Shown: positions 47,430 to 58,195 of the stretch, one piece after another | Layout of the letters: each line of letters opens with the position of its first letter | Position numbering within the stretch: the first letter of the stretch is position 1 | Assembly (NCBI RefSeq): GCF_024609765.1 | Contig: NZ_JANFDG010000011.1 | Coordinates: 1-64,000, forward strand | Origin: Shinella pollutisoli | Lineage (GTDB): Bacteria > Pseudomonadota > Alphaproteobacteria > Rhizobiales > Rhizobiaceae | Length of the DNA stretch: 64,000 nt | Direction of reading: 5' to 3' | Translations under genes and position numbers: made by a program | Notes under the pieces: generated by a model | The model's database searches: none | Seen by the model: the letters and a program-made list of their open reading frames with translations, nothing else | What the model was told of the DNA's origin: nothing

Positions 47430-48878
47430 ATGCGCACGCTGGCTGGACAGTCACTGCAGGAGGACATCGCCGCCGCGATCGCGCCGGCGCTGCGGGCGAT
47501 CGCGGCCTCGATCGGCCCGGACGGCCGGCATGTCCTCTACTATACCGGGGACCGCGTGCTGACCGCGCATACCGGCAGCGAGATCGCGCGCCGGATCTGT
47601 TCGGACCACTTCGCCGAACGGCTGCTGAAGGAGGCGCTGGTCGATGCCGAGCGCCAGTTCGGCGACGGGACGGCCCGGCTCGCCGTGATGGCGGGAGCGG
47701 CCCTGGCCGAGAGGCGCCGCCCCGGCGGCCCGGCGGTCGAGAGCGAACGCGTCATCGAGGCGCTCGCCTGGCTGCGGCCGGCGCTGGACGCGGCCTTCGC
47801 CGCGGAGACCCGCATCTGCGACGCGGGCGCCGGGCTGATCGCGGCGGCCGGCGTCGATGCCGCGCTCGTTCCCCTGATCCTGCAGGCGGATGCCGCGGCG
47901 GGTCCGGGCGGCCTGGTCGAGGTGAAGGAAGCGGCGGAAGCCGCCGTCGTCGCCGCCGACGGCTTCAGCTTCGATGCGCGCCATGCGGGCTCGGGGCCGC
48001 TTGCGGCGATGGACGACGTCCATCTGATCGTCGCCAACGAGATCCTGTCGGACTTCAAGACGCTCGCCCCGGTGATCGAGGGGTTCGCCGCGCGCGGCAA
48101 GGCGCTCGTCGTCGTGGCCCGCGGCATCGAGGGCCAGGCGCTGCAGCTGCTCGAGCGCAACCGGAAGGCCGGCGTGCTGAAGATCGCGGCCCTCGTCCCG
48201 GCCGATGCCGGGCCGCGCGCGGCCGAGATCCTCGAGGATCTGGCCGCCGCCAGCGGCGCGACGCTGGTCTGCGCCCAGGCGGGAACCGCCATCGAACGGC
48301 TGAAGCCCGCCATGCTCGGCCGGGCGGCGCGGTTCCGCTTCGAGCGCGGGCGGGTCCATCTGGCGGATGCGGCAGGCGCTGCGGACCGGATCGCCCTGCG
48401 CATCGCCTCCGCCGAGGCCGAGATCCGCGCGAAGCGCTACCTGCCGCTCGACCGCGAGCACGCCGAGCGGCGCCGGGCGCGGCTGGCGGGGCGCTGGGTG
48501 GAGCTGACCATCGCCCGGGGACCGGAATCGGGCGCGCAGGCGGAAACCGTGCGGCGCGCGATCGTGGCGCTGCGCGCCGCGCGCACGGACGGCGTCATCG
48601 TCGGCGGGGGCCGCGGCCTCGAGGCGATCGCCGACCGCCTGAAGGGCGCCGGCGGCAACGACCCCGCCCGGCTTGCCGCGGCGGCGATGATCGACGCGGC
48701 CTTGCGGGCGCCGGGACAGTGCCTGCGCCGCAATTCGGCCGAGCCCCGCGCGGACGGGCGCGGGCCGATGCCCGCCCTCGTCGCGGACCCGGCCCGGCTG
48801 TCGCGCGACCTGCTGGACGTCGCGCTCTCGCTTGCGGTCCGCCTTGCCGGAATCGGCGGGGCGGTGCTGCGCCACTGA
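47430..48878 (+). CDS. Divergent GroEL-like (chaperonin) protein with degenerate ATPase site
   Basis: A 482-residue protein whose order of motifs follows GroEL (about 545 residues). SIGPDGRHV at 27-35 matches LGPKGRNV; FGDGTARLAVMAGA at 77-90 matches the AGDGTTTATVLA block. The apical-domain run (VHLIVANEILSDFKTLAPVI, then IEGQALQLL) matches [20 protein letters not shown] and following. GVIVGGGRGL near 388 matches GVVAGGGVAL. By this alignment Asp79 corresponds to GroEL Asp87, but Asp52 becomes Thr48 and catalytic Asp398 becomes Arg376, and the GGM tail is missing. ATP hydrolysis is therefore doubtful. It starts 4 nt after pxpA. Perhaps it holds or assembles the Pxp complex; that is speculation. 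Confidence 0.75.
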   Translation: MRTLAGQSLQEDIAAAIAPALRAIAASIGPDGRHVLYYTGDRVLTAHTGSEIARRICSDHFAERLLKEALVDAERQFGDGTARLAVMAGAALAERRRPGGPAVESERVIEALAWLRPALDAAFAAETRICDAGAGLIAAAGVDAALVPLILQADAAAGPGGLVEVKEAAEAAVVAADGFSFDARHAGSGPLAAMDDVHLIVANEILSDFKTLAPVIEGFAARGKALVVVARGIEGQALQLLERNRKAGVLKIAALVPADAGPRAAEILEDLAAASGATLVCAQAGTAIERLKPAMLGRAARFRFERGRVHLADAAGAADRIALRIASAEAEIRAKRYLPLDREHAERRRARLAGRWVELTIARGPESGAQAETVRRAIVALRAARTDGVIVGGGRGLEAIADRLKGAGGNDPARLAAAAMIDAALRAPGQCLRRNSAEPRADGRGPMPALVADPARLSRDLLDVALSLAVRLAGIGGAVLRH

Positions 48879-48913: not shown

Positions 48914-49996
48914 ATGAACAACGGCGTCGTGGATCCCATGCTCGAGATCGAGGATCTTGTCCACTGCTACGGTGCGGTGACCGCGCTGAACCATGTCTCG
49001 GTTTCGGCCGCGAAGGGCGAGTTCCTGACGATCCTCGGCTCCAGCGGCTCCGGCAAGACGACGATGCTGCGGGTGATCTCGGGGCTGGAGATGCCGACGT
49101 CGGTCCGCCGGCTGCGCATCGGCGGGCAGGACGTCGCCCATCTTCCCGCAGCCAAGCGCAATTGCACGACGGTGTTCCAGAGCTATGCGCTGTTTCCGCA
49201 CATGAACGTGGTCGAGAACGTCGCCTACGGCCTGAAGATCCGCAAGGTGAACGGCCCCGACGCGCTGAAGGAGGCGCGGCGGGCGCTGGCGATGGTGCAG
49301 CTCGAGGGCAAGGCCGACCGGCGGATCAGCCAGCTCTCCGGCGGCGAGCGGCAGCGCGTGGCGCTGGCGCGGGCCGTGGTCACCCAGCCGGCCGTCCTGC
49401 TGCTCGACGAGCCGCTCGGCGCGCTGGACGAGCGCCTGCGCCAGGACATGCAGATCGAGCTGATGGAGCTGCAGCGCAGCCTGGGCATGACCTTCGTCTA
49501 CATCACGCACAGCCAGGAAGAGGCCCTCACCATGAGCGACCGGGTCGTTCTGATGAGCCACGGCCGGATCGTCCAGAGCGGCAGCCCGCTCGATCTCTTC
49601 GACAGGCCGGAAAGCCGTTTCGCGGCGGGCTTTATGGGCTACGAGAACATCCTGGAGGCGACGCTGGTCGCGCAAGACGGCACGCTCGGCACGGTCGAGT
49701 TCCCCGGCGGCCTGCGCATCCGCGGGGTCGTCACCGCGGACGGCCTGAAGGTCGGCGGGACGGTCGCCATCGCGATCCGCGCCGAACGCATCTCTCCCGT
49801 GTCGGCGGAGGCGCCGGAGAGCGTCGAGGCGACGCTCACGAACCGGATCTACCGGGGCAAGTACACGGACGTCACGGTCGCCACGGGAGCAGGACCGCTG
49901 CGCTTGCGCAGCTGGCACGGCGTAGGGAGCGAAACAGAGGAAATACGAAGGGTTGGCTGGAACACGACGGATGCCGTGATCTTCGCCGCGCAGTGA
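48914..49996 (+). CDS. Spermidine/putrescine-type ABC transporter ATP-binding protein (PotA-like)
   Basis: A 360-residue ATPase with Walker A (GSSGSGKTT), Q-loop (VFQSYALFPHM), signature (LSGGERQRVALARAV), Walker B and D-loop (LLLDEPLGALD), and a C-terminal TOBE-type region from about residue 240. It starts 35 nt after the chaperonin-like gene and precedes the binding protein and two permeases of the same importer. The long frame upstream of ATG 48914 is a shadow. Confidence 0.87.
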   Translation: MNNGVVDPMLEIEDLVHCYGAVTALNHVSVSAAKGEFLTILGSSGSGKTTMLRVISGLEMPTSVRRLRIGGQDVAHLPAAKRNCTTVFQSYALFPHMNVVENVAYGLKIRKVNGPDALKEARRALAMVQLEGKADRRISQLSGGERQRVALARAVVTQPAVLLLDEPLGALDERLRQDMQIELMELQRSLGMTFVYITHSQEEALTMSDRVVLMSHGRIVQSGSPLDLFDRPESRFAAGFMGYENILEATLVAQDGTLGTVEFPGGLRIRGVVTADGLKVGGTVAIAIRAERISPVSAEAPESVEATLTNRIYRGKYTDVTVATGAGPLRLRSWHGVGSETEEIRRVGWNTTDAVIFAAQ

Positions 49997-50030
49997 CTGC
50001 AAACCAGGAAAACCAACAGGGGATCGCAAG

Positions 50031-51230
50031 ATGCAAGACAGATTTTCAACATACAACCAGGCCCAACTGACCCGCCGCCAGATGCTGGCGGGCATGACCG
50101 CGCTCGCGGGTGCCGCCACGCTCGGCGGCATGCCCGGCATCGCCGGCGCGCAGGACGTGGCGTCCGTCAAGATCTACGGCGTTCCGACGGCGGCGCTCAA
50201 GGACTGGGCGCCGATGGAGAAGTCGATCGGCGTGCGCGCCGAGCTCTCCGGCTCCAGCAACGACGTCGGCGTCTTCATGCGCGACGTCATGGGCGCCAAC
50301 ATGGGCGACAGCGTCGATCTCTTCGTCTTCGAATCCGGCACCGAGGACATTCTCGGGCCGCAGGGCTTCTACGCCCCGCTCGACGAGGCCAATCCCGAGC
50401 TGACGCTCTGGGAGCGCACGTCGGACGACTGGAAGCGCTCGGCCGTCGTGCAGGACCGCGACGGCAAGCAGTGGGGCGTGCCGGTGATCGGCAACGCCGA
50501 CAGCTTCGGCTACTTCCCGGAAAAGCTCGGCATGGCGGCCGACAGCGAGGAGGAACTGTCCTGGTCGCTGATGTTCGAGAACGAGAACACCCGCGGCCGC
50601 GTCGCCTACGGCAACGCCTATACCTACTCGATGGGCGTCGCGGCACTCTATCTCCAGTCGAAGGGGGCCGCGACGTTCGGCGACATCGCCGACCTCACGC
50701 CCGAGGAGGCCAGGACCGTCGCGGACTTCCTGATCGAGCGCAAGAAGGCCGGCCAGTTCCGCACGCTCTACGGTGCGTTCGAGGAGCAGATCCAGCTTCT
50801 GACCAACCGCGAGGTGGACGTCATCAACTGCTGGGAGCCGGCCGTCCGCGAGGCCAATCTCAAGCTCGGGCCGGACGCCACGCGCTATGCCTACACCAAG
50901 GAAGGCTACTTCAAGTGGGGGCATGGCGCCTATATCGCCGCCCAGGCCGCCGACCGGGGCAATCTCGCCGCGATCTACAAGGTGCTGAACTACTTCCTCG
51001 GCGGCGAATATCGCGCGCTTCAGGCCCGCGACCGCGGCTATGCCGGCCCGAACATGGACCTCGGCGTCGAATATGCCGAGGCCAACGGCTGGAGCGCGGA
51101 CGAGATCGCCGCGCTGAAGGCCACCGAGGCCAAGGTGAACAAGAAGTTCTCGAAGCCCTACGTCTCGACCACCACGCCGGACAATGCCGGCGCGATGGAA
51201 GAGGAATGGCAGCGCTTCCTGAACGCCTGA
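50031..51230 (+). CDS. Spermidine/putrescine-type ABC transporter substrate-binding protein (Tat signal)
   Basis: A 399-residue extracellular binding protein. The N-terminus has a twin-arginine signal (LTRRQMLAGMTALAGAATLG), with cleavage probably after AGA. The mature part has the SBP-1/PotD fold (SVKIYGVPTAALKDW, INCWEPAVREANLK). It serves the ATPase at 48914-49996 and the permeases at 51298-53089. A strong hairpin follows its stop at 51241-51272. Given the neighbouring lactam and hydroxy-amino-acid enzymes, the ligand may be a lactam or basic amino acid derivative. Confidence 0.85.
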   Translation: MQDRFSTYNQAQLTRRQMLAGMTALAGAATLGGMPGIAGAQDVASVKIYGVPTAALKDWAPMEKSIGVRAELSGSSNDVGVFMRDVMGANMGDSVDLFVFESGTEDILGPQGFYAPLDEANPELTLWERTSDDWKRSAVVQDRDGKQWGVPVIGNADSFGYFPEKLGMAADSEEELSWSLMFENENTRGRVAYGNAYTYSMGVAALYLQSKGAATFGDIADLTPEEARTVADFLIERKKAGQFRTLYGAFEEQIQLLTNREVDVINCWEPAVREANLKLGPDATRYAYTKEGYFKWGHGAYIAAQAADRGNLAAIYKVLNYFLGGEYRALQARDRGYAGPNMDLGVEYAEANGWSADEIAALKATEAKVNKKFSKPYVSTTTPDNAGAMEEEWQRFLNA

Positions 51231-51240
51231 GCGAAGACGG

Positions 51241-51272
51241 GGTCCGGGCCCGCGGCGACGTGGGCCCGGACC
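51241..51272 (+). other. Intercistronic hairpin after the binding-protein gene
   Basis: A perfect 11-bp stem, GGTCCGGGCCC (51241-51251) with GGGCCCGGACC (51262-51272), and a 10-nt loop. No T-run follows. It has the same position, between binding protein and permease genes, as the hairpins at 5360-5384 and 17525-17552. Confidence 0.65.
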
Positions 51273-51297
51273 GGCCGGCGATCCGGAACTTCTTTGG

Positions 51298-52242
51298 ATG
51301 AGTGAGATGCAACAGACAGCAGGCGCCTCGGGAACAGCGACGGTCGGCCGCCAGGGTTTCCTGCGCGCGCTGGCCGGCAGGCTCGCCGACATGAACTTCG
51401 CCGTGACGGTCATCCTGTCGACCTGGTTCGTGCTGGTGATCGTGCCGATCGTCGTGCTCTTCGCCTTCAGCTTCTTCACCACCGTGCAGTTCCGCACCGT
51501 CTACGAGCCGACGCTGGACACCTGGATCGGGCTGTTCTCCTCCGGCCGGTGGGAGGTGACGCTGCGCACGCTGCGCATCGCGCTCACGGTGACGGTGATC
51601 GAGCTCCTGATCGCCTTCCCGTTCGCGCTCTGGCTGGCGAAGGGCTGCCGGTCCGGCACCGTGCAGGCCGTCTGCCTCGCCATGCTGACGATCCCGTTCT
51701 TCCTCGACATGTCCTCGCGCACCATCGTCTGGCGCGCCATCCTCGGCCAGTCCGGCCTGGTCAACACGATGCTGCTCGGCACCGGCCTCGTCGACACGCC
51801 GGTGGAGTGGCTGCTCTATTCGGAGGTGGCGGTGCATTTCGGCATGGTCGTCAGCCTGTTCCCGCCGATGGTCATGCCGATCTATCTGGCGATCAACCTG
51901 ATCGACGACACGCTGCTCGAGGCCAGCAACGACCTCGGCGCTTCGCCCTGGCAGACGCTGAGCCGCATCATCATCCCGCTATCGCTGCCCGGCGTGATGG
52001 CCGGCGTGGTGTTCTGCCTCGGTCCGGCGCTCGCCGCCTGGGTCGAGCCGGGCATGCTGGGAGGCGGCTTCGTCAACCTCATCTCGAACTCGATCGAGAG
52101 CGCCTATTCCGCGCTGCGCTATCCCGTCGTCGCGGCACTTTCCGCCTTCGTGATCCTGCTGCTCCTGCTGCTGCTGGCGGCGATGTACCTGATCGCGCGG
52201 CGGTTCGGCGATCCTTCGTCCGTCAGCGTATTCAGAGGCTGA
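51298..52242 (+). CDS. Spermidine/putrescine-type ABC transporter permease (PotB-like)
   Basis: A 314-residue inner-membrane permease with about six hydrophobic segments (for example FVLVIVPIVVLFAFSFF and FVILLLLLLLAAMYLI). The EAA loop is LLEASNDLGASPWQTLSRII. A cytoplasmic N-terminal extension of about 30 residues precedes the first segment. It is followed 4 nt later by the partner permease. Confidence 0.85.
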   Translation: MSEMQQTAGASGTATVGRQGFLRALAGRLADMNFAVTVILSTWFVLVIVPIVVLFAFSFFTTVQFRTVYEPTLDTWIGLFSSGRWEVTLRTLRIALTVTVIELLIAFPFALWLAKGCRSGTVQAVCLAMLTIPFFLDMSSRTIVWRAILGQSGLVNTMLLGTGLVDTPVEWLLYSEVAVHFGMVVSLFPPMVMPIYLAINLIDDTLLEASNDLGASPWQTLSRIIIPLSLPGVMAGVVFCLGPALAAWVEPGMLGGGFVNLISNSIESAYSALRYPVVAALSAFVILLLLLLLAAMYLIARRFGDPSSVSVFRG

Positions 52243-52246
52243 GCGC

Positions 52247-53089
52247 ATGAAAAGCCAACACTCCCTCAACCTGCGCCCGATCTCGCCGAAACTCGAGCCC
52301 AGCTACGCGCCCGTCTGGAAGCGCCTCGGCAAGTGGGGCGGGTTCGCCATGCTGGCGCTCATCTACTTCCCGCTGCTGTGGCTCATCCTCCTGTCGATCA
52401 GCCAGAACCCGCTCGGCGGCATCCCGGGATCGTTCTCGCTCGAGCACTACCGCGCGCTGTTCTCCAACAGCGCCTGGCACAAGCCGATGCTGGCGAGCCT
52501 GGCGATCGGCGTCCTGGTGGGGCTGGTCTGCGCGGTGGCCGCGACGATCATCGGCCGCGCCCTGCCGACGCTCAACAGCCCGGGCCGCGTCCTGTTCATG
52601 TTCGTCGTCCCGCTCTTCGTGCCCGGCATGTCGATGGGGGCGGCCCTGTTCATCCTGGCGCGCGCCGTCCTCAACCTGAAGCTCGGCTTCTGGTCGGTCG
52701 CGCTCGGCCATTTCGTCTGGGCCTTCCCCTTCGCCCTGCTGATCGTCCTGGTGGTGACCGTCCGCTTCGACCACCGGCTGGTCGAGGCGGGCCGCGACCT
52801 CGGCGCAAGCAACTGGCGCGTCTTCTGGGACATCGAGTTCCCGATCCTGATGCCCGGCATCGTCAGCGCCGCGCTGTTCGGCTTCCTGATGTCGTTCAAC
52901 GAGGTCATGCGGTCGATCTTCCTGCGCGGCACCGCCGAGACCATGCCGGTCTGGAGCTGGATCCAGGCCGCCGCCCAGCAGAGCCAGGTGCCGATCATCT
53001 TCTCGCTCGCCTCGCTGGTGCTGCTCGTCACCCTGCCGCTGCTGTGCGGCGTCTTCTGGCTGCTCTTCGCCCGGGTGGGCCGCTCATGA
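52247..53089 (+). CDS. Spermidine/putrescine-type ABC transporter permease (PotC-like)
   Basis: A 280-residue permease with segments such as FAMLALIYFPLLWLILLSI and an EAA-like loop (LVEAGRDLGASNWRVFWDI). It is the last rightward gene of the pxpA-chaperonin-transporter series and converges on the gntR gene 32 nt away. Together with 51298-52242 it should form the membrane channel. Confidence 0.85.
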   Translation: MKSQHSLNLRPISPKLEPSYAPVWKRLGKWGGFAMLALIYFPLLWLILLSISQNPLGGIPGSFSLEHYRALFSNSAWHKPMLASLAIGVLVGLVCAVAATIIGRALPTLNSPGRVLFMFVVPLFVPGMSMGAALFILARAVLNLKLGFWSVALGHFVWAFPFALLIVLVVTVRFDHRLVEAGRDLGASNWRVFWDIEFPILMPGIVSAALFGFLMSFNEVMRSIFLRGTAETMPVWSWIQAAAQQSQVPIIFSLASLVLLVTLPLLCGVFWLLFARVGRS

Positions 53090-54811: not shown

Positions 54812-55791
54812 ACGCGCGTTGCATCACCGTCCTGAAGCCGGGCCTTGAGACCACGGTGCAGGAACTGCCCGGCCGGATCGGCTATCTGGAGCAGGGCTTC
54901 CCGGTCTCCGGCCCCTTCGACAAATGGTCGTTCCGGCAGGCCAACCTGCTGGCTGGCAATCCGCGCGACACCGCCGCGCTGGAATGCCAGTTCCTCGGCC
55001 CGACGCTGCGCTTCGACTGCGACGCGACGGTCGCGGTCACCGGCGCCGACATGCGGCCGAAGCTCGACGGAGAGCCGGCGGCGATGTGGCGGAGCCTGCC
55101 CGTCAGGGCCGGCCAGGTGCTGGAGCTCGCGGCCGCCTACAGCGGCGCGCGCGGCTACGTCGCGGTCTCCGGCGGCATCGACACGCCCGTCGTGCTCGGC
55201 TCGCGGGCGGTGTTCCACATGGCCCGGGTCGGCGGACAGGCGCTCGCCAGGGACCAGGTCCTGCCGCTCGGTCCGCCGCCCTCCGGCGCCGGCGACATCC
55301 TCGCCGTTCCCGAGGCGAGCCGCCCGCCCTTCTCCACCGACAAGACCTGGCAGATCGAGGCGCTGGCCGGCCCGAACGACGACTGGCTCGACCCCGCCTC
55401 CGTCGAGATGTTCTTCAGCGCCGACTGGTCGGTGCAGGCCAAGAGCAACCGCACCGGCATCCGCCTGAGCGGCCCGCAGTTCGCCTTCGCCGGCCGGGCG
55501 CTCGACAAGAGCAGTGACCACGGCCAGGACCCGTCGAACATCATCGACCACGGCTATCCGCTCGGGGCGGTGAACCTCGCCGGGCAGACGCCGATCATAC
55601 TGGTCAACGACGCCCCGAGCACCGGCGGCTTCATCAATCCCTTCACGGTCGCCAGCGCGGCGTTCTGGAAGCTCGCCCAGGCCAAGCCCGGCGACGTCCT
55701 GCGATTCCGCCGGATCGATCGCGAGGAGGCCGGCCGTCTGCGCGCCGCGCTCGAAACCGTGACCAGCGCAGGAGTGGCAGTCCGTGTCTGA
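54808..55791 (+). CDS. pxpC: 5-oxoprolinase subunit C (KipA/allophanate hydrolase subunit 2 family)
   Basis: A 327-residue PxpC/KipA protein with family marks VLKPGLETTVQELPG, ARGYVAVSGGIDTP, SNRTGIRLSGP and VNDAPSTGGF. With PxpA and PxpB it should make an ATP-dependent lactam-opening enzyme. It overlaps pxpB by 4 nt and the kinase-like gene by 8 nt, so all are translated from one message. Confidence 0.87.
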   Translation: MNARCITVLKPGLETTVQELPGRIGYLEQGFPVSGPFDKWSFRQANLLAGNPRDTAALECQFLGPTLRFDCDATVAVTGADMRPKLDGEPAAMWRSLPVRAGQVLELAAAYSGARGYVAVSGGIDTPVVLGSRAVFHMARVGGQALARDQVLPLGPPPSGAGDILAVPEASRPPFSTDKTWQIEALAGPNDDWLDPASVEMFFSADWSVQAKSNRTGIRLSGPQFAFAGRALDKSSDHGQDPSNIIDHGYPLGAVNLAGQTPIILVNDAPSTGGFINPFTVASAAFWKLAQAKPGDVLRFRRIDREEAGRLRAALETVTSAGVAVRV

Positions 55792-56869
55792 CGTGACGAC
55801 TATCGTGCCCGCGAGCGATCCCGTCCGGGGCGCGCTCGGGGAAATGCTCAACAGCCCGCCGCCCGCCATTGACGAGGCCACCGCGGCCCGGCTGATGCAA
55901 CGCCATTTCGGCATCTCGGGCAGCGCGGAGACCCTCGCCTGCGAGCGCGACGCGAACTTCCACATCGTCGCCGACGACGGGCGCAAGTTCACGCTGAAGG
56001 TCTCGAACCCGGCCGAGCCGGAAATCAACACCAACTTCCAGACCGAGGCGCTGCTCTGGCTGGAGCGGCGCGATCCCGGCCTGCCGGTGCCCAAGGCCCT
56101 GCGGGCGCTCGACGGAAGAAGCGAATTCCCGCTGGTGCTGGAAGACGGGCGGTCGAGCGTCATCCGCGTGCTCACCTGGCTCGACGGGTTCCCTGTGGTG
56201 CGCGTCGGCGTCACGCCGGCGCTGCGGCGCGACCTCGGGCGGGCGCTCGCGCGGCTCGGCATCGCCTTCGAGGGGTTCGACCATCCGGCCTCCAGCCACG
56301 AGATCCTCTGGGACGTCAAGAACGCCTCGCGTCTGCGGCCGCTGGTCGAGGCCCTGACGGAGCCCGACCTGCGCCGGCAGCTGACGGCGGAGCTCGACCA
56401 CTTCGACGCCGATGTCCTCCCCGTCCTCGCGACGCTCAGGCAGCGCGTCGTGCACAACGACCTGAACCTGCACAACGCGGTGCTGGAGCCCACCGATCCG
56501 GACCGGATCACCGGCATCCTCGACTTCGGCGACATGGTGAAGACCGCGCTGATCATCGATCTCGCCGTCGCCGCCTCCTATCACACGCAGGAGGCCGAAG
56601 GCTGCCTCGCGGCGGTCTGCGACATGGTGCGGGCCTATCACGAGGTCCTGCCGCTGGAGCGGCGCGAGATCGACGTGCTGCGCGACCTGATCGTCGCGCG
56701 CCTGATGACGACCGTCGCCATCACCGAGGGCCGCGCGGCGCGCTATCCGCAGAACGCGGCCTACATCCTGCGCAACAACGGCCCCGCCCGCATGGGCCTG
56801 CGCCTCTTCGCAACCCTTCCCCGAGACCAGGTCACGGCGGCCCTTCGCGCCGCCTGCAGTATGGAGTGA
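55784..56869 (+). CDS. Phosphotransferase, hydroxylysine kinase (AGPHD1)-like
   Basis: A 361-residue APH-fold kinase. The catalytic loop is VVHNDLNLHN (His224, Asp226, Asn231) and the metal-binding motif is ILDFGD (Asp247). Human AGPHD1 phosphorylates 5-hydroxylysine, and the product is broken down by the PLP enzyme AGXT2L2; bacterial relatives of the two are often adjacent or fused. The next gene is exactly such a PLP enzyme, 3 nt away. I therefore infer a kinase for a hydroxy-amino acid or amino alcohol. It overlaps pxpC by 8 nt. Confidence 0.75.
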   Translation: MSDVTTIVPASDPVRGALGEMLNSPPPAIDEATAARLMQRHFGISGSAETLACERDANFHIVADDGRKFTLKVSNPAEPEINTNFQTEALLWLERRDPGLPVPKALRALDGRSEFPLVLEDGRSSVIRVLTWLDGFPVVRVGVTPALRRDLGRALARLGIAFEGFDHPASSHEILWDVKNASRLRPLVEALTEPDLRRQLTAELDHFDADVLPVLATLRQRVVHNDLNLHNAVLEPTDPDRITGILDFGDMVKTALIIDLAVAASYHTQEAEGCLAAVCDMVRAYHEVLPLERREIDVLRDLIVARLMTTVAITEGRAARYPQNAAYILRNNGPARMGLRLFATLPRDQVTAALRAACSME

Positions 56870-56872
56870 GCC

Positions 56873-58195
56873 ATGAAGACCCAGGAAGCAATGGTCAACG
56901 CCTTCATCGAGGGCGCGGCTGAACTGGACGAGGCGACCGCCGCGCTGATCGCGCAGCGCAAGGCCCTGCTCGGCCCCGCCTACCGCCTCATGTACGAGCG
57001 CCCGCTGCATTTCGTGCGCGGCGAGGGCGTCTGGCTCTACGACCCGGACGGCAACGCCTATCTCGACGCCTACAACAACGTGACCTCGGTCGGCCACTGC
57101 CATCCGAAGGTGGTCGAGGCGATCCGCCGCCAGGTCGGCATCCTGGCGACGAACACCCGCTACCTCCACGGCGCGGTCCTCGACTACGCCCGGCGCCTGC
57201 TCGCCACCATGCCGTCCGAGATCGGCCACCTGATGTTCACCTGCACGGGATCGGACGCCAACGACCTGGCCGTGCGCATCGCCCAGGCCCATACCGGCGG
57301 CAAGGGCATCATCGTGACGGAGACCGCCTATCACGGCATCACGCAGGCCGTTTCCGAATTCTCGCCCTCGCTCGGGGAGAATGTCGACCTCGGCGTGCAC
57401 GTGCGCACCGTTCCAGCACCCGACAGCTACCGGTCGGAGAACGTCGCGGAGGAATTCACCGCCGCCGTCCGCGCCGCGATCGGCGACCTGCGGCGCCACG
57501 GCATCAAGCCGGCGCTCCTCATCTGCGACGGCATCTTCGCCAGCGACGGCGTCTTCGACGGTCCGGCGGGCTTCCTCAAGAGGGCGGTCGACGCCATCCG
57601 CGAGGCGGGCGGCCTCTATATCGCCGACGAGGTGCAGTCGGGCTTCGCCCGCACCGGCGAGGCGATGTGGGGCTTCCAGCGCCACGGCGTCGTCCCGGAC
57701 CTGGTGACGATGGGCAAGCCGATGGGCAACGGCTTCCCGGTCGCCGGCGTGGCCGCGCGCCCGGAGGTGCTCGCGGACTTCGGGGCGAAGGCGCGCTACT
57801 TCAACACCTTCGGCGGCAACGCCGTGGCGGTCGCCGCCGCCTCCGCGGTGCTCGACGTCATCGAGGAGGAGGGGCTCCTGGAAAACGCCCGCACCATCGG
57901 CCGCCACATCAAGGAAGGGTTCCAGGCGCTCGCCGGCAGGCACGCCTGCCTCGGCGACGTGCGCGGCGCGGGGCTCTTCCTCGGCGTCGAGATCGTCTCG
58001 GACCGGGCCGGGAAGACGCCGGACGCCGCCGCCGCGACGCGCATCATCAACGGGCTGCGGGACGAGAACGTCCTGATCTCCGGCTGCGCCAAGGCGGCGA
58101 ACGTGCTGAAGATCCGCCCGCCCCTCGTCTTCACGCGCGAGAACGCCGACGAGCTGATCACCAAGCTCGATCTGGTGCTGCAGCGCCTGTCCTGA
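56873..58195 (+). CDS. Class III PLP enzyme, ammoniophospholyase-like (AGXT2L family)
   Basis: A 440-residue class III aminotransferase-fold protein. The PLP lysine is Lys282 in TMGKPMGNGFPVAG, a motif shared with ethanolamine-phosphate and 5-phosphohydroxylysine phospholyases. ADEVQSGFARTG and TCTGSDANDLA are other family marks. Such enzymes release ammonia and phosphate together, giving an aldehyde. With the kinase just upstream it forms a two-step deamination of a hydroxy-amine. An ordinary aminotransferase role cannot be excluded from sequence alone. Confidence 0.78.
   Translation: MKTQEAMVNAFIEGAAELDEATAALIAQRKALLGPAYRLMYERPLHFVRGEGVWLYDPDGNAYLDAYNNVTSVGHCHPKVVEAIRRQVGILATNTRYLHGAVLDYARRLLATMPSEIGHLMFTCTGSDANDLAVRIAQAHTGGKGIIVTETAYHGITQAVSEFSPSLGENVDLGVHVRTVPAPDSYRSENVAEEFTAAVRAAIGDLRRHGIKPALLICDGIFASDGVFDGPAGFLKRAVDAIREAGGLYIADEVQSGFARTGEAMWGFQRHGVVPDLVTMGKPMGNGFPVAGVAARPEVLADFGAKARYFNTFGGNAVAVAAASAVLDVIEEEGLLENARTIGRHIKEGFQALAGRHACLGDVRGAGLFLGVEIVSDRAGKTPDAAAATRIINGLRDENVLISGCAKAANVLKIRPPLVFTRENADELITKLDLVLQRLS

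Follow-up and report, generated by a model that had tools for sequence, protein, structure and literature searches.

A divergent GroEL-like protein with a predicted hydrolysis-dead ATP site in an import and putative lactam-catabolism gene cluster of Shinella pollutisoli

INTRODUCTION

The best-known chaperonins whose ATP site is broken are the vertebrate BBS proteins, and the best-known GroELs dedicated to an operon are those of monooxygenase operons. Among the latter, MmoG and MimG are GroEL-like proteins reported to be needed for maturation of their enzymes (PMC7994243, PMC5874634, PMC7176365), and MmoG is also reported to be necessary for the binding of MmoR to DNA (PMC5874634). The vertebrate proteins BBS6, BBS10 and BBS12 are described as chaperonin-like factors that lack folding activity and help to put together one complex; in BBS6 and BBS12 the ATP-hydrolysis motif is altered (PMC5534436). 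Bacteria and their phages offer further divergent examples: the GroES-binding and ATP-binding regions of chlamydial GroEL2 and GroEL3 are reported to differ from those of E. coli GroEL (PMC1892554), and the chaperonin gp146 of phage EL is reported to lack the D83-K327 and R197-E386 bridges and not to function with E. coli GroES, while being an active ATPase (PMC7185714). In GroEL, these two bridges are described as belonging to the apo state, and the D83-K327, R197-E386 and K80-E386 contacts as breaking or forming during the ATP cycle (PMC3326522). According to the same report, the D398A variant binds ATP normally and, with about 3% of ATPase activity left, is still able to encapsulate and fold protein (PMC3326522); loss of D398 alone therefore does not abolish chaperone action. 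The enzymes relevant to the present locus, the PxpABC 5-oxoprolinase and caprolactamase, are compared in a separate study (PMC8453981).

Here we describe PCpn (pseudo-chaperonin), a GroEL-like protein encoded in the window, by which we mean the whole 64,000-nucleotide stretch of Shinella pollutisoli DNA that was analysed. Like MmoG of the soluble methane monooxygenase operon and MimG of an acetone/propane-type monooxygenase operon, as these are described, PCpn is a GroEL-like protein dedicated to one catabolic operon; unlike them, it has no monooxygenase among the cluster genes identified, the systems being compared here by their published descriptions. With BBS6 and BBS12, as reported, it shares a chaperonin ancestry and an altered hydrolysis site, but PCpn is bacterial and matches group I chaperonins, whereas BBS6, BBS10 and BBS12 are said to derive from the eukaryotic group II protein CCT8. 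It also resembles the published picture of chlamydial GroEL2 and GroEL3 in being a bacterial group I paralogue that has diverged in the GroES-binding and ATP-binding regions. We know of no tie between the chlamydial proteins and a catabolic cluster. As described for gp146, both bridges are gone from PCpn, gp146 differing in that it is an active ATPase. The ring-opening enzymes PxpABC and HyuAB/caprolactamase, which share PCpn's cluster, are not chaperonins, and to our knowledge no PCpn-like gene lies alongside pxpABC in E. coli.

The initial annotation of this DNA proposed that a pseudo-chaperonin scaffolding, assembling or regulating a Pxp-type enzyme would be a new kind of system. Because MmoG and MimG are already known as operon-dedicated GroEL-like proteins, this wording is too strong; PCpn is of interest as a bacterial protein that unites an apparently broken ATP site with dedication to an operon.

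MATERIALS AND METHODS

Eleven PCpn proteins, the window protein included, were aligned by MAFFT with 79 GroELs, a non-random set picked by similarity to the query, and residues are numbered as in E. coli GroEL. The 79 GroELs are those left after removal of the GroEL loci L093 and L101 (two candidate ORFs), P0007 was taken from a chosen internal ATG (501 of 541 aa), and the fragmentary MAG copy L034 was kept outside the 11-protein set. Except where papers are cited, residues in the alignment are given their commonly assigned GroEL roles. Profile A3 was built from a ten-sequence alignment of 10 of the 11 PCpn proteins (P0011 was left out). The tree took in the 11 PCpn proteins and 37 of the 79 GroELs and was rooted at its midpoint. 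Linkage tables cover the window and 11 other loci, 12 in all, with L034 included. Single-chain structures were predicted by AlphaFold2 with 34 sequences and compared by Foldseek.

RESULTS

PCpn is a divergent group I chaperonin

The PCpn reading frame is open throughout, and its ATG lies 4 nt downstream of the PxpA stop codon; the genes at 48914-53089 encode an ABC importer, in agreement with the arrangement first proposed (Table 1). An antisense open frame of 474 codons (47451-48875, minus strand) lies opposite the gene and is likely a by-product of high G+C content.

Table 1. Genes and sequence features of the PCpn cluster in the window
Feature	Coordinates	Strand	Evidence or remark
PxpA (LamB/YcsF family), 244 aa	46691..47425	+	PF03746 7.6e-79; NF003814 above cut-off
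PCpn (pseudo-chaperonin), 482 aa	47430..48878	+	group I Cpn60 fold without catalytic Asp398/Asp52
SIGPDGR, codons 27-33	47508..47528	+	nucleotide loop, GroEL T30 to R36, Gly-Pro kept; alignment
Codon 48, Thr replacing GroEL Asp52	47571..47573	+	alignment
GDGT, codons 78-81	47661..47672	+	Asp79 corresponds to GroEL Asp87, kept; alignment, D in 11/11 relatives
Codon 376, Arg replacing catalytic GroEL Asp398	48555..48557	+	alignment; R in 8/11, A in 3/11 relatives
PotA-like ABC importer ATPase, 360 aa	48914..49996	+	profile matches
Substrate-binding protein (SBP), 399 aa	50031..51230	+	Pfam; weak TAT-signal match below cut-off; marker of system
ABC permease, PotB-like, 314 aa	51298..52242	+	profile matches
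ABC permease, PotC-like, 280 aa	52247..53089	+	profile matches
GntR/FCD regulator, 228 aa	53122..53808	-	PF07729 8.1e-27
PxpB-like carboxyltransferase half, 287 aa	53948..54811	+	TIGR00370 1.6e-24 (below cut-off); urea carboxylase C-terminal region 4.4e-52
PxpC-like carboxyltransferase half, 327 aa	54808..55791	+	PF02626 2.1e-84
APH-type kinase-like protein, 361 aa	55784..56869	+	resembles PRK06148 N-terminal part, below model cut-off
Class III PLP enzyme, 440 aa	56873..58195	+	PF00202; best solved relatives phospho-lyases, 5g4i 4.5e-106, 6tor 1.3e-99
Biotin carboxyl carrier protein (BCCP), 82 aa	58222..58470	+	PF00364 1.1e-8
Putative biotin carboxylase (AccC-like), 455 aa	58467..59834	+	by-eye sequence reading and orthologues' position

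The resemblance to Cpn60 noted earlier was borne out and cannot be put down to chance. The sole Pfam match is PF00118 (Cpn60_TCP1; 1.8e-13), at 50.5 bits against a cut-off of 34.3, and a phmmer search of the PDB recovered GroEL chains at 1.9e-28 over residues 20-432. NCBIfam GroEL models match with E-values down to 3.7e-35, all below their own cut-offs: the best reaches 121.2 bits of the 352 required, and TIGR02348 gives 110 bits for a cut-off of 582.1. The chlamydial GroEL2 and GroEL3 models did not recognize PCpn, scoring 18.4 and 38.2 bits for a cut-off of 600. Certain relatives score much better on the GroEL models than the window protein does (best 6.8e-105). Together with the predicted fold described below, these matches identify PCpn as a real, very divergent group I chaperonin. 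Among the matches listed in a literature search of titles and abstract openings, which took in few subscription journals, no earlier description of PCpn was found.

PCpn is only 29-30% identical to the GroELs resident in the same genome. These are three in number, each with a Cpn10 gene just upstream, and they lie elsewhere; within the window genome, to which this search was confined, no Cpn10 (GroES) gene was found on the window's contig. A housekeeping role for PCpn is thereby ruled out, and its designation as a dedicated operon member stands.

The catalytic acids are lost and the phosphate loops are kept

All 79 GroELs have Asp398, and all 11 PCpn proteins have lost it, with Arg (8/11) or Ala (3/11) in its place; Asp52 occurs in 77/79 GroELs and 3/11 PCpn proteins, being absent from the other eight. 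The two substitutions that had been read by manual alignment, Thr48 for Asp52 and Arg376 for Asp398, thus survive refinement against a large GroEL set, which rules out an alignment artefact hiding the acids, and the claim of a disabled ATPase site is strengthened by the loss of Asp398 from every relative found. Other parts of the site have also changed: T90 is mostly Ala and T91 mostly Arg, the adenine-contact loop 479-481 is deleted in 8/11, and an Arg stands at 397 or 398 in 11/11. Asp87 is kept in all PCpn proteins and all 79 GroELs, and Gly32, Pro33 and Gly414 in 11/11 PCpn proteins. The motifs that were pointed out as retained (GPDGR, GDGT and GVIVGGG) are the phosphate-binding loops, so that what has gone is the catalytic acids and not the whole site. 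Judged by the alignment, PCpn appears to have lost the chemistry of hydrolysis while keeping the phosphate loops, and through its GP, DGT and Gly414-416 loops it may bind nucleotide or another phosphate compound without turnover. Two GroEL paralogues of other genomes (L100 and L105, in G1363 and G1388) have Ser at position 52 and keep Asp398.

Salt-bridge switches, apical surface and ring contacts have diverged

The residues of the GroEL bridges are replaced almost throughout the family. R197, K327 and E386 are lost in 11/11 (with Arg for K327 in two proteins and Asp for E386 in G1160), D83 is Arg and K80 is Asp or Glu in 10/11 each, and E252 is Arg in 10/11. The salt-bridge switches that hold GroEL closed are thus lost. 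The apical pair E255/K245 is retained in 7/11, and K390 in one protein, that of G287 (Hyphomicrobiaceae).

The apical residues that we take to bind substrate and GroES are Y199, Y203, F204, L234, L237, L259, V263 and V264. In the window protein only L259 is kept; L237 is Ile and the other six are lost. Across the family Y203 is lost in 11/11 and F204 in 10/11, and V263-V264 is Glu-Arg in the five window-type proteins. G287 keeps both valines, and this, with its K390 and the E255/K245 pair of seven relatives, indicates that the loss of GroEL features is graded.

The GGM tail, noted at the outset as missing from PCpn, is absent from all 11 proteins, compared with 73 of the 79 GroELs that have it. 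Conversely, a PxMLG motif is found in 11/11 PCpn proteins and 1/79 GroELs. The ring-contact positions A109, E461 and R452 are altered in most relatives, and at least 10/11 PCpn proteins retain the GroEL residue at 16 of the 94 equatorial positions that never vary among the GroELs aligned.

PCpn relatives are rare and probably of one origin

The relatives comprise proteins of Shinella sp. PSBB067 (79% identical to the window protein), Ochrobactrum sp. RH2CCR150 (73%), a Gemmobacter MAG (62%), Rhodobacter sp. Har01 (60%) and a Hyphomicrobiaceae MAG (33%; the same contig as G287), with further members in G1010, G1174, G1160, G242 (family f18 of the window's own order) and G1536 (family f74). They span Alphaproteobacteria and a second proteobacterial family, f259 (G1010, G1174 and G1160), which is probably Burkholderiaceae. 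A scan of genome contigs by two short peptide patterns confirmed 5 of 152 stretches as PCpn relatives; because it relied on those patterns, divergent members will have escaped it. With the A3 profile, the three members present in the genomes searched (G242, G1010 and G1160, all of them rows of the profile) scored 565-680 bits, and the best GroEL 354.

The gene is rare. It occurs in 2 of 21 genomes of the genus, 1 of 10 in G242's family and 2 of 150 in G1160's order. A search with P0001 at E 1e-40 gave 2/397 in the order and 1/385 in the class, the own genome being counted each time, and these two tallies are undercounts because the search missed G242. Among 398 genomes sampled across the phylum, only G1010 and the own genome exceeded GroEL scores. 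One scan of viral contigs with A3 yielded 126 pattern matches and no PCpn relative, and a viral origin was rejected on this ground.

In the tree, the 11 PCpn proteins fall on one side of a branch with SH-aLRT support of 100; branches are long and may attract, and under midpoint rooting G242 stands apart from the other ten. A single origin of the family, rather than convergence, is likely from these sequences. G242 has an odd extra chaperonin, L094, which carries Asp52 and Asp398, and a further divergent GroEL paralogue (L198:7841-9526, G242:C23) that has both aspartates and no GGM tail. In the cluster of a Rhodobacteraceae MAG (L034:10001-13201), the chaperonin-like gene, PotA and SBP all carry internal deletions, which reflect decay or misassembly.

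The importer is the constant neighbour of PCpn

The order PxpA-PCpn-PotA-SBP-permease-permease is shared by the window, PSBB067, Ochrobactrum, Rhodobacter, G1010, G1174 and G1160, and these seven clusters also hold PxpB-PxpC, GntR, kinase and PLP enzyme genes. The Gemmobacter contig stops past PotA, and L034 retains the gene order with most of SBP missing. In G287 and G1536, PCpn is followed by the PLP enzyme, PotA, SBP and the permeases, and then by GntR, PxpA, PxpB and PxpC, the PxpB and PxpC of this first G1536 cluster being broken across several ORFs. In G242 the order is PCpn-PotA-SBP-permeases-PLP enzyme-GntR, with HyuA and HyuB genes (Pfam Hydantoinase_A and Hydantoinase_B) on either side (L074:1856-7553 and L075:4082-8101), and the 24 kb read contained no match to the window's PxpA, PxpB or PxpC. 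Two neighbouring ORFs of G242 each match Hydantoinase_B across its length. A GntR-type regulator gene is present wherever the flank extended to it.

In a reverse test, genomes were searched with the SBP at E 1e-90 and then inspected for PCpn. The SBP was found in 3/297 genomes of the order, 3/180 of the G1010 family and 1/115 of family f74; among 72,556 plasmid records, one SBP exceeded 60% identity and ten were near 34%, these ten being left out of the tally of PCpn carriers. All eight distinct carriers at this threshold have PCpn, including G242, G1174, G1160 and G1536, which were first found through the SBP (4/4).

The importer is thus the constant neighbour of PCpn, and the association extends beyond Pxp. 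Of the proposed linkage to pxpA, the conserved cluster holds, PxpA being present in 11 of the 12 loci with L034 included, and its constancy does not, since G242 has HyuA/HyuB instead; the Pxp link is common. The more specific proposal that PCpn serves a Pxp-type enzyme is weakened by G242 and by a second cluster beside the first in G1536 (L116:1197-5458), which has PxpA, PxpB, PxpC, BCCP and AccC without PCpn. PxpA homologues below 60% identity were also found in 376 plasmid records, where PxpA was tallied alone and its neighbours lay outside the tally. G242 has HyuA/HyuB where PxpABC would be and retains the importer, which on the basis of this one genome suggests that the partner of PCpn is the importer or a feature shared by both ring-opening chemistries.

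PCpn evolves fast, with dN/dS below 1

Nei-Gojobori dN/dS of PCpn was 0.225 in the comparison with Shinella PSBB067, 0.367 with Rhodobacter and 0.107 with Ochrobactrum, where dS (1.8) was close to saturation. In all three comparisons it was the highest among the validly compared genes (11, 10 and 10 genes) and yet below 1; AccC values against Ochrobactrum and Rhodobacter were excluded as invalid because those loci end in or before AccC. Over ten loci the mean pairwise identity of PCpn was 37%, against 60-68.5% for PotA, SBP, the two permeases and PxpA (nine loci for PxpA), making it the fastest evolving of the six cluster genes compared. The pairwise identities of PCpn track those of PotA (r 0.974), PxpA (0.97), SBP (0.944), PermC (0.916) and PermB (0.84), as would be expected from shared ancestry alone. 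The fast evolution fits a loose scaffold and also partial relaxation.

The predicted subunit resembles GroES-bound GroEL

The AlphaFold2 model of PCpn (pLDDT 85.4) recovered the three-domain chaperonin fold. Among the 50 Foldseek matches listed, the GroES- or Hsp10-bound chains 4v4o, 8wuc, 8wuw, 1aon, 9es0 and 3wvl, which have raised apical domains, gave TMq 0.79-0.87, and apo and nucleotide-only GroELs gave 0.56-0.63. As a control, the true GroEL L118 was modelled with the identical 34 sequences (pLDDT 84.8). It reached up to 0.91 to ATP-bound chains (4aaq, 8g7l) and about 0.76 to apo chains (1oel, 1ss8), and only 0.66-0.68 to the GroES-bound chains favoured by PCpn. Because the control was not raised when given PCpn's sequences, the preference for the raised state belongs, in this one comparison, to the query sequence. 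The result suggests, from one single-chain model and one control, that the PCpn subunit rests in a raised conformation like that of GroES-bound GroEL.

DISCUSSION

Without the residues that split ATP and without the switches, and yet beside the same importer in distant bacteria, PCpn looks like a passive helper. The reading that we prefer, with a probability of about 0.5, is that PCpn is a dedicated, hydrolysis-dead and GroES-independent scaffold or holdase, derived from a chaperonin, of an import-and-lactam-catabolism system. A group I chaperonin would have been taken into the cluster and have become a passive helper devoted to it. Without an ATP cycle, PCpn would form a static binding platform or open ring, and it would hold or help to assemble one of the system's proteins, most probably a component of the hetero-oligomeric machinery for import or ring opening. 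Taken together, the published accounts of MmoG and MimG as GroELs of one operon, and of BBS6, BBS10 and BBS12 as assembly helpers, lead to such a model of a static scaffold or holdase; PCpn would be analogous to BBS6 and BBS12 in BBSome assembly, and to MmoG and MimG in serving one operon. A more ambitious version, which we consider doubtful, is that PCpn represents a new class of chaperonin-derived scaffold, in which an ATPase-dead, GroES-independent raised ring builds or couples the importer and the lactam-opening enzyme, whichever of the two unrelated types is present.

Several other roles can be envisaged. PCpn might be a working but very slow chaperonin that takes up ATP through the loops it retains and, with no or trace hydrolysis, folds or holds a single client. 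The near-universal retention of the GP and DGT loops and G414 would allow this, as would the reports that GroEL with D398A binds ATP and can still enclose and fold protein (PMC3326522) and that the phage EL chaperonin is an ATPase despite lacking D83-K327, R197-E386 and interaction with GroES (PMC7185714). We nevertheless consider it unlikely, given that Asp398 is not merely absent but replaced by Arg in 8/11, that T90 and T91 are changed in most relatives and the adenine-contact loop is deleted in eight, and that window-type proteins have lost the GroES-binding residues. The invariable Arg at 397 or 398 stands in a pocket that retains its phosphate loops, and PCpn could instead be a regulator or sensor in which this pocket binds a pathway metabolite or a phosphate, the protein then acting on a transcription factor or on the importer. 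For such a role MmoG is a precedent, being reportedly required for DNA binding by MmoR (PMC5874634), and a candidate target is the GntR-type gene of the cluster; however, the GntR proteins of six distant loci are just 26-47% identical to that of the window, and the pocket has lost its adenine-contact loop in 8/11, so we rate this role as distinctly unlikely.

GroEL subunits pair through the 35-46 hairpin and short strands at both termini. These elements are present in the PCpn model, and three GroELs occur in the same cell, so PCpn might enter the rings of housekeeping GroEL, either as an inhibitory subunit or as one specific to a client. The low identity of PCpn to those GroELs, the small share of GroEL-invariant equatorial positions that it keeps (16 of 94) and the altered contacts at A109, E461 and R452 make mixed rings improbable. 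Finally, PCpn could be a decaying, functionless GroEL copy carried along by linkage, as its fast evolution, its dN/dS at the top of the cluster genes compared, its sporadic presence in the genus and the fragmentary L034 version might suggest. This we regard as very improbable: dN/dS to Shinella is 0.225, the 11 reading frames are intact, PxMLG is held in all of them, the loss of D398 is held across distant families, and PCpn is kept in G242, where the catabolic genes differ.

With few defined neighbours and a natural enzyme swap, PCpn as a dedicated scaffold or holdase would offer a tractable test of a chaperonin without ATP cycle or GroES, and the system bears on how chaperonins become specific to a single client.

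The label lactam is used for the pathway because the enzymes belong to the Pxp and Hyu families; a search of solved structures with the SBP, which might have named the substrate, gave no relative at E 0.001. The clusters occur in two forms, with a kinase and without (G287, G1536 and G242). For the kinase-containing form, phospho-lyases (5g4i and human 6tor) are the closest solved relatives of the window's PLP enzyme; the PLP enzymes of the three kinase-less clusters are 27-29% identical to that of the window, the nearest chains to the G287 enzyme being labelled 4-aminobutyrate transaminase. These assignments fit a cluster that would import a compound, open its ring and remove an amino group, the compound differing from host to host. 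In the window, the kinase and the phospho-lyase-like PLP enzyme are separate genes (55784-58195), the kinase corresponding to the N-terminal part of a long PRK06148-type protein, and this pair suggests a phosphorylated hydroxy-amine intermediate.
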